In this document: positions 48,027-53,204 of the stretch, in pieces
Position numbering within the stretch: position 1 is the first letter of the stretch
Layout: every line of letters starts with the position of its first letter
From: Candidatus Cloacimonadota bacterium
GTDB taxonomy: Bacteria; Cloacimonadota; Cloacimonadia; Cloacimonadales; Cloacimonadaceae
Length of the DNA: 64,000 nt
Assembly (NCBI GenBank): GCA_020532085.1
Contig: JAJBAV010000012.1
Coordinates: 1 to 64,000 of the forward strand
Reading direction: 5' to 3'
Translations under genes and position numbers: made by a program
The notes under the pieces: model-generated
The model's database searches: none
Told to the model about the DNA's origin: nothing
Seen by the model: only the letters and a program-made list of their open reading frames with translations

Positions 48027-48087
48027 TCAATTCAGAGGCGCAAGTGAGCAATGAAGCCACTCGCGCCAAGTTTCAGAAAGGAAAAAG

Positions 48088-48099
48088 ATGACAGCATGA
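48088..48099 (+). other. Three-codon leader reading frame overlapping the ABC-F start
   Basis: ATG ACA GCA TGA has AAAGGAAAAAG directly upstream, and its stop overlaps the ABC-F ATG (ATGA). The good ribosome site is placed for this minigene; the ABC-F ATG itself is 14 bases from it. Confidence 0.4.
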
Positions 48100-50006
48100 G
48101 TTTGATCCGCGCACGAGATCTGTCGCTGGAATTTGGCGGCAACTACATCCTGAACAAGGTGAACTGCAGTTTGGAGCAGAACAGCCGGGTGGGCCTGATC
48201 GGAACGAACGGTTCCGGCAAGACCACCCTCATCCGCCTGTTCCTGGGATTACTGCAACCCGTTTCAGGTGAGGTTTTGCGCGCCCGGAACTGCCGGGTGG
48301 CCTGGCTGCCGCAGGACCTCAAGCTCGATCCCGCCATAACTCTGCTGGAGCATGTGCGCTCTTCCCGCCTGGACCTGATCTCCCTAGCGGATGAGATCGA
48401 CCGCCTTTCCCAAAGCCTGGCCACCGCTCACGACCAGGAAACCGAGGCCCGGTTGAACCTTGGCGTGGAGCGCTACACCAGCCTGGGGGGCTACGAATTT
48501 GAGAACGAACTGAAGTATGTGCTCACTTCACTGAGCCTGCCGCCGGAGACCTGGAACAAGCGTTGCGGCGATTTCAGCGGCGGTGAGCAAACCCGGATCT
48601 GTTTGGCCGCCATCCTGCTGCTGGAGCACGACCTGCTGATCCTGGACGAACCCACCAACCACCTCGATCTGGAAATGATCGCCTGGCTGGAAAGATATCT
48701 GCTGAAACAAGGCAAACCCTTTCTGGTCGTATCCCACGACCGCCAGTTCCTGGACAACACCGTGAGCAGCGTCTGGTGCCTGCGTGAGGGCCAGATCAGC
48801 GTTACCAAGGGCAATTACAGCTCCTTCAAAGCTGCCGACGAGATCGCCCGCCTCAGCCAGGAACGCCAGTTTGAGCGCCAGCAAAAGCTGATCGCGGAAA
48901 CCCAGGCCTACATCCAGAAATTCATCGCCGGAACTCGTACCAGTTCAGCCCGTTCGCGCCAAAAGATGCTTGAGCGGATGGAGATCGTGAAAAAACCGGG
49001 CCAACAGAGACAGCTCCGCCTGCCCGTGGCGGCCGGAAAACGCAGCGGCAATGACGTTTACACGCTCACCGGCCTCAGTTTCGGCATCCCGCCTGAGCTG
49101 GAACTCGCCCGCGAGGTGGACCTCAGGGCCCAATATCAGGACCGCATCTGCGTTTTGGGGCCCAACGGCTGCGGCAAGACCACACTTCTGAACATCCTCC
49201 TGGGTGAACACGAGATCATGGGGGGCAGCCTCAAAACCGGGGCCAGCCTCGATATCGGCTATTACGACCAGCATCAGGTGCTGCTGGATGACAGCCTCAC
49301 GGTGATGGAAACCATCTGGCAGCTTGTACCGCAGGCACCGCAGGGCTATGTGCTCAGTTGGCTGGCGCGCTTCGGCTTCCGCGGCGACGACGTGGAGAAA
49401 CAAGTCCGCGTGCTCAGCGGCGGTGAGCGTTCCCGGCTTTTCCTCTGCCAGATGATCCACGAAAACCCCAACCTGATGATCCTCGACGAACCTACCAACC
49501 ATCTGGACATCGATATGACCGACGCCCTGCTGGAAGCCCTGAAAGCCTATACAGGAACCGTCATCTTCGTTTCCCACGACCGCTGGTTCCTCAGCGAACT
49601 GGCCACCAAATTTTGGGTTTTCCGCAAAAAAGCCTCTCCCGCGGGCATCTACACCACTGTGGAGGAACCCGACTGCGAATGGCAGAAAGCGATCGAACTG
49701 GCTTTCGAGGATCCGGAGCTGGCCAAGGTCCCGCCCCCGGCCCGCGAGCGCAAAAAGAAGATCAATCCCTGGTATCTGGAACAGATCCATCTGAGCATCG
49801 AACAGGGCGGACAACGCCTCGCGGATCTGCAAAAAGAGCTCGAATCCGTTCACATGGAGCTTTCGCGCTCGGAAACCTATTCCGAGCCAGGCCGCCTCAG
49901 CACCCTGCAAGCGCGAATGGCGGAGCTCGAAATCGAGATCGGAAGCGTGGAAAGCCAGATCGCCGCGTGGGAAGAGCAGTACCTGAGGCAAAGCTATGAA
50001 GAGTAA
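48096..50006 (+). CDS. ABC-F family ATPase
   Basis: Cytoplasmic ribosome-associated ATPase of 636 aa with two ABC domains and no membrane part. Domain 1 has Walker A GTNGSGKTT, FSGGEQTR and ILDEPTNHLDL; domain 2 has GPNGCGKTT, LSGGERSRLF and ILDEPTNHLDI. A linker lies between them and a C-terminal coiled coil (about 560-636). The start MSLIRARDLSLEF is preferred over the ATG at 48051. The gene overlaps the HgdB-like gene by 11 bases and leads the trio with mnmA. The subtype (Uup, EttA or YdiF-like) is not certain; the coiled-coil tail favours Uup/YdiF. Confidence 0.92.
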   Translation: MSLIRARDLSLEFGGNYILNKVNCSLEQNSRVGLIGTNGSGKTTLIRLFLGLLQPVSGEVLRARNCRVAWLPQDLKLDPAITLLEHVRSSRLDLISLADEIDRLSQSLATAHDQETEARLNLGVERYTSLGGYEFENELKYVLTSLSLPPETWNKRCGDFSGGEQTRICLAAILLLEHDLLILDEPTNHLDLEMIAWLERYLLKQGKPFLVVSHDRQFLDNTVSSVWCLREGQISVTKGNYSSFKAADEIARLSQERQFERQQKLIAETQAYIQKFIAGTRTSSARSRQKMLERMEIVKKPGQQRQLRLPVAAGKRSGNDVYTLTGLSFGIPPELELAREVDLRAQYQDRICVLGPNGCGKTTLLNILLGEHEIMGGSLKTGASLDIGYYDQHQVLLDDSLTVMETIWQLVPQAPQGYVLSWLARFGFRGDDVEKQVRVLSGGERSRLFLCQMIHENPNLMILDEPTNHLDIDMTDALLEALKAYTGTVIFVSHDRWFLSELATKFWVFRKKASPAGIYTTVEEPDCEWQKAIELAFEDPELAKVPPPARERKKKINPWYLEQIHLSIEQGGQRLADLQKELESVHMELSRSETYSEPGRLSTLQARMAELEIEIGSVESQIAAWEEQYLRQSYEE

Positions 50007-50973
50007 GCGGATCGGCTTCACCACCTCTTTCCCCGTGGAAGTGTTGTTCGCGGCCGGACACAGGCCGGTGGACCTGAACAACATCTTTGTGGAGGGCGAT
50101 TCCGCCGCGCATGTCCGCAAAGCAGAACTGAAGGGATTTCCGCGCACCATCTGCGCTTGGATCAAGGGCAACTACGATGCCGCTCTCAGCTCCGATCTGG
50201 ACGAAGTGATCGGCATCGTGCAGGGCGATTGTTCAAACGGCGCTTCGCTCACCGCGATGCTGGCTGAAGCCGGCCTGCCGGTCTGGCATTTTTCCTTTCC
50301 GCAGGAACGCACGCGCGAGGCCCTGGATACCGAGCTAAGCAAGCTGGAAGCGCACTTTGAAGTGAGCCGGGATGCGGTGATGAAGGTCAAACGGCGATTG
50401 GACGCCATTCGCGCCAAACTGAAAACCCTGGATGAATGGACCTGGTGCGAACGCCTTGTGACTGGCAGGGAAAACCACATCTGGCTGGTTAATTCCTCCG
50501 ATTTTAGGGGCGATCCCGACCGCTTCGAGGAAGAGCTCGACACCTTTTTAGGCGAGGCCGCCAACCGCGACCCCATCCCCACAAAACTTCGCTGCGCCTA
50601 TCTGGGCGTGCCTCCCATCTACCGCGACATCTACGACAGGATCGCGCAGCAGGGTGCGGATGTGCTCTTCAACGAGGTGCAGCGCCAGTTCGCCATGCCT
50701 TCGCTGCTGCCTGACATCATCGACCAATACCTCGTTTATACCTATCCCTACAGCGTTTTCCAGCGCCTGGAGGACATCCTCCCCCAGCTCAGCCAACGCC
50801 GCATCGACGTCGTGATCAGCTACACGCAGTCTTTTTGCCATCTGCAGATCGACAACATTCTGCTGAAAAAACGCATCGACCTGCCTTTCCTCACCCTCGA
50901 GGGTGATCAACCGGAGACGCTGGACAGCAGGACTTTGCTGCGTTTGGAGAGTTTCTTCGAGGTGCATGGATGA
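49996..50973 (+). CDS. 2-hydroxyacyl-CoA dehydratase-like (HgdB/D-component) iron-sulphur protein
   Basis: A 325-aa protein of the HgdB/BcrC-like family. Three Cys at family ligand positions are visible: C53 in RTICAWIKG, C79 in GDCSNG and C281 in TQSFCHLQID; they probably hold a [4Fe-4S] cluster. Only one subunit is present, and no ATPase activator (HgdC/BadF type) or CoA-transferase is nearby. It overlaps the ABC-F stop by 11 bases and the mnmA start by four, so it is made with translation factors. A tRNA-related redox or sulphur role is inferred. A double-cubane reductase-like protein is another possibility. Confidence 0.82.
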   Translation: MKSKRIGFTTSFPVEVLFAAGHRPVDLNNIFVEGDSAAHVRKAELKGFPRTICAWIKGNYDAALSSDLDEVIGIVQGDCSNGASLTAMLAEAGLPVWHFSFPQERTREALDTELSKLEAHFEVSRDAVMKVKRRLDAIRAKLKTLDEWTWCERLVTGRENHIWLVNSSDFRGDPDRFEEELDTFLGEAANRDPIPTKLRCAYLGVPPIYRDIYDRIAQQGADVLFNEVQRQFAMPSLLPDIIDQYLVYTYPYSVFQRLEDILPQLSQRRIDVVISYTQSFCHLQIDNILLKKRIDLPFLTLEGDQPETLDSRTLLRLESFFEVHG

Positions 50974-52046
50974 AGCGGGTGCTGCTGGCCATGAGCGGCG
51001 GCATCGATTCCGCCGTGAGCGCCGTCTTGCTGCAGGACCAGGGCTATGAGGTGCTGGGCGCAACGATGCGCCTGCGCGGCGCGGAGGGAGGCCGCTACGG
51101 CATTCACAGTGGTTGTTTCGGCCCCCGGGAACCGCTCAACCGGCAAATGCTGGAACGGGTGGGTGAACAACTCCGCATTCAGATCCTGGAAGCAGACCTC
51201 AGCCAGTCCTTCGAAAACGAGGTCCTGAACTACTACCGCGCCACCTATCTGCAGGGCCGCACTCCCAATCCCTGCGTGGTTTGCAACCAGAGATTGAAAT
51301 TTGGCCTGCTGCCCCTGGCGCTGAGAAACCAAGGCGTGGAGTTTGACTTTTACGCCACCGGCCACTACGCCAGAACCCGCTTCAGTAAAGAAAACGGACG
51401 CTGGCAGCTGCTCAAAGGCCGCGATGCCCTCAAAGACCAGTCCTATTTCCTCTGTCTGCTGTCTTCAAACCAGCTCTCCACCACGCTTTTTCCCCTGGGT
51501 GAACTCACCAAGGCAGAGGTGCGGGAAACAGCCCGTAAACGCGGACTGGATTTTCTGCTCAGCCAAGCCGAAAGCCAGGATTTCCTAAGCGAGGAGGACC
51601 ATCCCCGCCTGTTTGCGGGTGCGCAGATCAAAGCAGGAGACATGATCGATCCCGAGGGCAAAGTGGTGGGACGGCACCGCGGCCTGATCCACTACACGAT
51701 CGGCCAGCGCAGGCATCTGGGTCTCAGCGGCAGGCCCGAGCCCTGGTATGTGATCGGCTTTGATACCTGCCGCAATAGCTTGCGGGTGGGCCCGCAAAGC
51801 TTTCTCTATAAAGACAAACTCACAGTTTCCAGCGTCAACTGGGTTTCGGCCCCGCCCCTCAGCGCCACCAGCCGCGCCGAAACAAAGATCCGCTTTGCCC
51901 ACAAACCCGCGCCCGGTACACTCAGACCACTGCCGGACGGCTCGGTCGAAGTGACCTTCGACACCCCCCAAATGTCCGTAACCCCCGGCCAGTTCGCCGT
52001 TTTCCATGATGGCGACATCCTCTTGGGAGGGGGCGTGATCCTCTGA
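50970..52046 (+). CDS. mnmA: tRNA 2-thiouridine synthase MnmA, variant cysteine set
   Basis: Thiolates U34 of Lys, Glu and Gln tRNAs. The ATP-binding PP-loop is SGGIDS (9-14), the first catalytic Cys region is PNPCVVCNQ (C102, C105), and GHYARTRF and HYTIGQRRHLG are typical. The usual second catalytic Cys (motif ESQxxCF) is absent: here the sequence is ESQDFLSEED, with Leu206 in its place. An additional C49 lies in SGCFGP. A C49/C102/C105 set could hold an Fe-S cluster. The start overlaps the HgdB-like stop (ATGA). Confidence 0.9.
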   Translation: MKRVLLAMSGGIDSAVSAVLLQDQGYEVLGATMRLRGAEGGRYGIHSGCFGPREPLNRQMLERVGEQLRIQILEADLSQSFENEVLNYYRATYLQGRTPNPCVVCNQRLKFGLLPLALRNQGVEFDFYATGHYARTRFSKENGRWQLLKGRDALKDQSYFLCLLSSNQLSTTLFPLGELTKAEVRETARKRGLDFLLSQAESQDFLSEEDHPRLFAGAQIKAGDMIDPEGKVVGRHRGLIHYTIGQRRHLGLSGRPEPWYVIGFDTCRNSLRVGPQSFLYKDKLTVSSVNWVSAPPLSATSRAETKIRFAHKPAPGTLRPLPDGSVEVTFDTPQMSVTPGQFAVFHDGDILLGGGVIL

Positions 52047-52256: not shown

Positions 52257-53204
52257 ATGATTTGCGTAAAATGGGATAAAAACCGCTGTCCGAAGAACAT
52301 TGAATTGCCTTCGGGCTGGGTCTTTTACAGTTTCCGGCAAGGCGACCAACCCTTATGGTGCGGCATCACGCCCAATCTGGCCCAGCGTTTGAAGGTGGTC
52401 CGCCAGAAAGCTGAAAGTGATCCCCGCTACGGGGAAAACACAGCGGCCGCCGACATTTTGCAAATCGAAACATATCCGCGGGCCATTGACGCCCTGATCC
52501 GCTTCAAAGTATTTCTGCGCCTGCATCAGGTGACCTTTCAACACGTCATGCGGACCAGCCGCGACTATGTTTACCTGGCCCTGGACGGCCATCGCTTCCC
52601 CTTCGTCTGCGTGAAAGAAGACACCAACGACGACTGGAGCTATCTGGGACCCTGGCGCGGCCGCTTTTTCCTCACCGATGTGATGGACACCTTCGCGCGC
52701 ATTCTGAAGCTCCCCTACTGTGAAACAGACAGCCATCCCTGCGTGAAACACGAAACCGGGGCTTGCCAGGGCTGGTGCCTTGCCTTGGCGGAAAATCTGC
52801 CTGAAGCTGAAAAACCTGATCTGGCCAAACTCGACACCCTGCTGCGCGAAACTTATCTGCATCCCCAAAACGGCATCCTGGAGATGGTTTCCCAAGAACG
52901 TGACCGCTATTTCGATGACCTCGAGTTCGCCAAGGCGGACCTGCTCGACGAGGAGATCGACAAACTTGCGAAGTACCGCGACTGGCTGGGTTTTCTTTAT
53001 GTGACCAAGTCCCTGAGCTTCAGCGAAGAGGATTTCGGCGTTGAAAACGGACTCCTGAGCTGGTGCGTATATGAAGGGGTGAGATACGAATTCGTGAACG
53101 CGCTGGACTCCTACCGGGAAAATGAACTGCTGGCGATCAACCTCAACGATACCGATGAGGCTCGTTTGCTCTATGAATATCACGTAAAACATCATAAAGG
53201 ATAG
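52257..53204 (+). CDS. UvrC-like GIY-YIG nuclease-related protein
   Basis: A 315-aa protein resembling the N-terminal half of UvrC. The GIY-YIG-like part spans about 18-110 (GWVFYSFRQGDQPLWCGIT, with NLAQRL). A Cys cluster follows (LPYCETDSHPCVKHETGACQGWC), which matches the Cys-rich part of UvrC. A UVR-like helical pair follows (RYFDDLEFAKADLLDEEIDKL). The UvrC C-terminal endonuclease domain is missing. Stand-alone UvrC-N proteins (Cho-like) are known. The ribosome site is weak. It precedes purC by three bases. Confidence 0.72.
   Translation: MICVKWDKNRCPKNIELPSGWVFYSFRQGDQPLWCGITPNLAQRLKVVRQKAESDPRYGENTAAADILQIETYPRAIDALIRFKVFLRLHQVTFQHVMRTSRDYVYLALDGHRFPFVCVKEDTNDDWSYLGPWRGRFFLTDVMDTFARILKLPYCETDSHPCVKHETGACQGWCLALAENLPEAEKPDLAKLDTLLRETYLHPQNGILEMVSQERDRYFDDLEFAKADLLDEEIDKLAKYRDWLGFLYVTKSLSFSEEDFGVENGLLSWCVYEGVRYEFVNALDSYRENELLAINLNDTDEARLLYEYHVKHHKG

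Follow-up and report, generated by a model that had tools for sequence, protein, structure and literature searches.

The MnmA encoded in the window, the whole 64,000-nucleotide stretch of Candidatus Cloacimonadota DNA analyzed here, belongs to a distinct branch of MnmA proteins that apparently has not been described previously. Members of this branch lack the cysteine of the ESQxxCF loop and always keep three others, C49, C102, and C105. The HgdB-like gene that overlaps mnmA had been proposed to serve the same tRNA thiolation system; this link does not generalize, whereas the MnmA observation generalizes to a distinct class. On balance, we lean slightly toward a two-part explanation in which an MnmA class with swapped cysteines, likely carrying a [4Fe-4S] cluster, and a separate HGD-D protein with an HgdC-like activase share one gene cluster.

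Gene order in the window

The genes and motifs considered here are the following.

48051 to 50006, forward strand: ABC-F ATPase gene, 651 amino acids as called (NCBIfam ribo_prot_ABC_F NF000355, 408 bits; cut-off, 380)
49996 to 50973, forward strand: HgdB-like (HGD-D) gene, 325 amino acids, single copy (Pfam PF06050, 5.7e-29)
50970 to 52046, forward strand: mnmA, tRNA U34 2-thiouridylase of the variant class C-CxxC without the third cysteine, 358 amino acids (NF001138, 336.7 bits; cut-off, 284)
51114 to 51116, forward strand: MnmA Cys49 codon, motif GCFGP (Cys in 49 of 49 variant MnmAs)
51273 to 51284, forward strand: MnmA Cys102-Val-Val-Cys105, motif PNPCVVCN (both cysteines in 49 of 49 variants)
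51570 to 51584, forward strand: MnmA ESQDF loop (canonical, ESQ(E/D)ICF), with two residues including the cysteine deleted according to alignments

The overlaps are as first noted: the ABC-F and HgdB-like genes share 11 bp, the HgdB-like gene and mnmA overlap by ATGA, and both ORFs are real genes as judged by Pfam and NCBIfam. The window genome, which is 99% complete, contains a single copy of mnmA. Downstream of mnmA (52257 to 53204) lies a gene whose product is similar to the UvrC N-terminal part or to a DEDD-exonuclease GIY-YIG protein, with scores far under the family cut-offs.

Sequence and predicted structure of the window MnmA

The window MnmA exceeds the curated cut-offs for tRNA 2-thiouridine(34) synthases (336.7 versus 284 bits for NF001138 and 285.7 versus 237 bits for TIGR00420) and contains the catalytic (PF03054), central (PF20259), and C-terminal (PF20258) domains, as well as the PP-loop SGGxDS motif (S9-G-G-I-D13-S14) and the C102xxC105 motif. 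Its cysteines are at positions 49, 102, 105, 162, and 267. The preliminary description placed a leucine where the cysteine of the ESQxxCF motif normally stands. The cysteine is indeed absent and residue 206 is a leucine, but alignments with relatives read ESQD--F, which rules out a Cys-to-Leu substitution and reveals a deletion of two residues including the cysteine. In alignments, the first-motif cysteine of Escherichia coli MnmA (EEYC) and the CC of C-type MnmAs fall at Cys49. This residue, regarded at first as extra, is therefore a known first-motif cysteine and not a new one; only when set against the majority of sister Cloacimonadota MnmAs is it extra.

The best fold matches of the predicted model (overall pLDDT, 91.8) are crystal structures of MnmA (TMq up to 0.89), followed by the TtuA Fe-S thiolases. 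The region around C49 is modeled with low confidence, with residues 38 to 40 below 50 and mean values of 64 for the block 41 to 50 and 77 for the block 51 to 60. The [4Fe-4S] tRNA thiolases TtuA, NcsA, and TtcA, like the variant MnmA, have a PP-loop and three conserved cysteines including a CxxC. The third cysteine of these enzymes follows the CxxC, as did the cysteine lost in the variant MnmA, whereas C49 precedes it. A CxxC-C type MnmA of Thermus thermophilus is reportedly the subject of the study of Shigi et al. in 2020. This type (PMC8584467, PMC11784392) and the variant have in common the PP-loop, a CxxC opening the catalytic helix, the first-motif cysteine, and the domain order. However, the third catalytic cysteine of the ESQxxCF loop is deleted in the variant, which places the window MnmA outside the CxxC-C type, and the first-motif cysteine is invariant in the variant and optional in the CxxC-C type.

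Distribution of the variant MnmA

Two kinds of MnmA were found across 125 genomes of the phylum Cloacimonadota. The variant kind reads C[FY]GP ... PNPCxxCN ... ESQ(D/N)--F and is present in every readable member of the window's family and in two genomes from outside it (G056 and G061), each of a different family. All other Cloacimonadota MnmAs read PxPCxxCN ... SQ(E/D)xCF, and most of them are without the first-motif cysteine. The 40 Cloacimonadota variants formed one group (SH-aLRT, 100) in a quick tree, in which one row (G018) is not labeled as a variant, reads SCFGP, and belongs to the variant group. In an alignment of 32 variant MnmAs, C49, C102, and C105 were the sole invariant cysteines.

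The variant is not confined to Cloacimonadota, as nine of the ten best matches in an MnmA profile search of 247 genomes of a second phylum were further variants. With the same profile, the 30 best matches from 300 genomes of the Thermosyntropha phylum included no variant and were all canonical. The 49 variant MnmAs from the two phyla formed one clade (support, 0.995) in a joint FastTree tree. Among the sequences of this tree, which are related and do not represent independent events, the cysteines C49, C102, and C105 are kept in 49/49 variants and the third cysteine in 0/49, while a cysteine in the C49 region is present in 61 of the 94 canonical MnmAs. Since canonical MnmAs can lose the C49-region cysteine, this residue is dispensable when the third cysteine is present and fixed when it is not; loss of the first-motif cysteine was seen where the third cysteine is present and never after the third cysteine was gone. 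The 49/49 pattern in one clade is far above chance, and the simplest reading is a single loss of the third cysteine. The variant MnmA thus combines an intact PP-loop and intact tRNA-binding domains with a single origin and invariant cysteines.

Reviews of MnmA recognize the types C-DxxC-C and CC-CxxC-C and a C-type that lacks the first CC motif (PMC11784392; also PMC8584467), and their classifications include no type without the last cysteine. Two genomes of another family (G098 and G102; loci L112 and L111) encode an MnmA with ENVCC, CxxC, and ESQDFCF that is on a long branch and is unlike those of its relatives, possibly as a result of transfer.

Predicted thiolation mechanism

The mechanism of MnmA is openly disputed between a Cys199 persulfide and a [4Fe-4S] cluster (PMC11784392). 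Cluster use even by canonical MnmA is contested, and the two models cast E. coli Cys199, the residue lost in the variants, as the proposed persulfide carrier or as a cluster ligand, respectively (PMC11784392). A conserved natural MnmA class in which that cysteine is deleted and three others are always kept is a clean test case: if the variant makes s2U34, the Cys199 persulfide cannot be a universal step.

The earlier suggestion that three cysteines of the window MnmA could bind an Fe-S cluster has gained support, since C49, C102, and C105 are the sole invariant cysteines of a coherent class, as such an enzyme would need. We infer for the variant a cluster, C49 as its third ligand, and an s2U34 product. 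The chances seem to us about even that the variant is a third natural MnmA class, which exchanged its third ligand a single time, holds a [4Fe-4S] cluster on C49, C102, and C105, and thiolates U34 without a persulfide carrier of the Cys199 type. The ancestral variant MnmA would have lost the persulfide cysteine of the ESQxxCF loop once, and the third ligand would have moved from this loop to Cys49 in the first motif, so that Cys49, Cys102, and Cys105 are most likely the three ligands of the predicted cluster. The free iron of the cluster could then bind hydrosulfide for delivery to the adenylated U34, as has been proposed for TtuA/NcsA and the CxxC-C MnmA.

A cluster-free enzyme, in which a cysteine desulfurase is the direct donor and either C49 or the C102/C105 pair carries out persulfide chemistry, seems possible but unlikely. 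The window genome does encode a NifS/IscS-like cysteine desulfurase, the first-motif cysteine is present even in the E. coli-type MnmA, and direct transfer from desulfurase to MnmA is known in Bacillus subtilis (PMC11784392). However, Fe-S PP-loop thiolases typically show strict co-conservation of three cysteines, a CxxC among them (PMC10067955, PMC8584467), and the archerase system and the sample sources suggest an anaerobic host lineage. An arrangement in which Asp204 of the shortened ESQD loop joins C102 and C105 as a cluster ligand and C49 serves another role is improbable. Asp204 is more than 90% conserved among 32 variants, adjoins the site of the lost cysteine, and is aligned with E. 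coli C199 by phmmer, and an aspartate ligand has a proposed precedent in E. coli (Asp99/Cys102/Cys199; PMC11784392); yet one variant (L054) has an asparagine there while C49 is lost in 0/49, and canonical MnmAs already have a glutamate or aspartate at that spot. That the variant has lost its catalytic activity or now acts on another substrate, as the loss of a cysteine essential in E. coli might suggest, is very hard to credit, as it is the product of the sole mnmA of the genome and its SGGxDS and GHY motifs and both RNA-binding domains are intact across two phyla.

The desulfurase gene of the window genome (G000:C11:57150-58241; L230) encodes a DNCVTT motif near the start and scores under every curated cut-off listed. 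In the search for TusA, the sole TusA-domain match in the window genome was located inside a CoA-disulfide-reductase-like fusion, which makes a Tus relay unlikely.

HgdB-like protein and its probable activase

The HgdB-like protein contains an HGD-D domain (PF06050, 5.7e-29), and Cys53, Cys79, and Cys281 are invariant in an alignment of 52 homologues. These three cysteines align with cysteines of HadC and the double-cubane-cluster protein DCCP, and the predicted model matches the folds of DCCP and of HadC and other 2-hydroxyacyl-CoA dehydratase subunits (TMq, about 0.8). With DCCP (6eno, 7yyl), the protein shares the fold (TMq, 0.81; E, 1.7e-15) and the three aligned cysteines, and DCCP is likewise a D-component, paired with a reductase of its own (DCCP-R). 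However, the HgdB-like protein scores only 30.2 bits against the double-cubane-cluster reductase family (NF040772; cut-off, 350) and has just three invariant cysteines, and therefore a single [4Fe-4S] cluster is expected. With HadBC/HgdAB and HgdC, it has in common the HGD-D fold, the three ligand cysteines, and an HgdC-like activase in the genome, but it consists of a single D subunit that falls about 50 residues short of theirs, and in the window genome its gene is not linked to that of the activase. It is encoded by the sole HGD-D gene of that genome, whereas the HadBC type has two different D subunits.

The HgdB-like protein had been described as being without its usual activator. Genome-wide this is wrong, and an orphan status is ruled out: one HgdC-like activase with both cysteine motifs (NDKCAAG and STCVVF) is encoded on another contig (G000:C22:45751-46509; TIGR00241, 233 bits; cut-off, 125) and is the only BadF/HgdC-family activase of the window genome. 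The presence of HgdB and that of the activase are correlated across the 125 genomes (Fisher P = 1e-9) and within the order (P = 0.026), although the co-occurrence is partly phylogenetic because sister lineages have neither. The activase gene adjoins HgdB in Bacillota and Desantisbacteria and, with the activase judged by its cysteine motif alone, in two genomes of the second phylum. The best reading of the HgdB-like protein is an archerase-driven reductase that is independent of MnmA. It would be an HGD-D protein of its own, made up of one subunit whose three cysteines are predicted to form a [4Fe-4S] site, and the HgdC-like ATP-dependent activase probably drives it to reduce a substrate at low potential.

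HgdB, ABC-F, and mnmA as gene neighbors

Across the order, the conserved genetic neighbor of the HgdB-like gene is the ABC-F gene, which lies directly upstream in 63 of the 69 Cloacimonadota loci from the scan. In five of the other six, the locus starts no more than about 500 bp from HgdB; ABC-F is thus the upstream neighbor in 63 of the 64 loci that can be assessed, and one true exception remains (L190). The gene order is kept even though ABC-F identity across the loci falls to about 35%. The ABC-F and HgdB-like Fe-S protein genes (48051 to 50973 in the window) are thus an order-wide gene pair and often overlap. We are aware of no function connecting ABC-F proteins with archerase-type reductases.

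The preliminary description had HgdB supplying electrons or sulfide to the MnmA lacking the cysteine for cluster-dependent thiolation, a cooperation that we now regard as quite improbable. In 37 Cloacimonadota genomes, mnmA follows HgdB, next to it or overlapping it, and every Cloacimonadota genome with a variant MnmA falls in the order that carries HgdB. Among genomes of the second phylum, 5 of 9 with a variant and 4 of 21 with a canonical MnmA contain HgdB (Fisher P = 0.08), on contigs other than those with mnmA. However, the 37 genomes are all of one family, and HgdB, which accompanies ABC-F throughout the order, predates its link with mnmA and is more widespread. HgdB is unlinked to mnmA in nine variant genomes, one of which (G001) has the two genes about 761 kb apart on a single 2.2-Mb contig, and it was not found in four of the nine variant genomes of the second phylum, for which completeness was not given. 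It is also found alongside canonical MnmA in many genomes, being located away from mnmA in such Cloacimonadota families, and the HgdB-bearing genomes outside Cloacimonadota have a canonical MnmA where the loop was read. In several phyla, HgdB adjoins its own activase. The survey of co-occurrence proposed at the outset therefore showed that HgdB occurs elsewhere, too, irrespective of mnmA type, which had been named as telling against the link; gene order and distribution rule out a partnership as a rule. A literature search found no paper treating HgdB together with MnmA. The mnmA gene probably joined the ABC-F/HgdB cluster in one lineage, part of one family.

The occurrence of the HgdB and activase pair in several phyla, with 521 relatives in genome contigs, suggests a widespread uncharacterized two-component reductase. 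In Syntrophomonadaceae and relatives (L186, L191, L193, L194, L197, L199, and L200), the HgdB and HgdC-like activase genes are located between murI and rph/rdgB-type genes, and most of these loci also contain genes for an MBL-fold protein and a fumarase.
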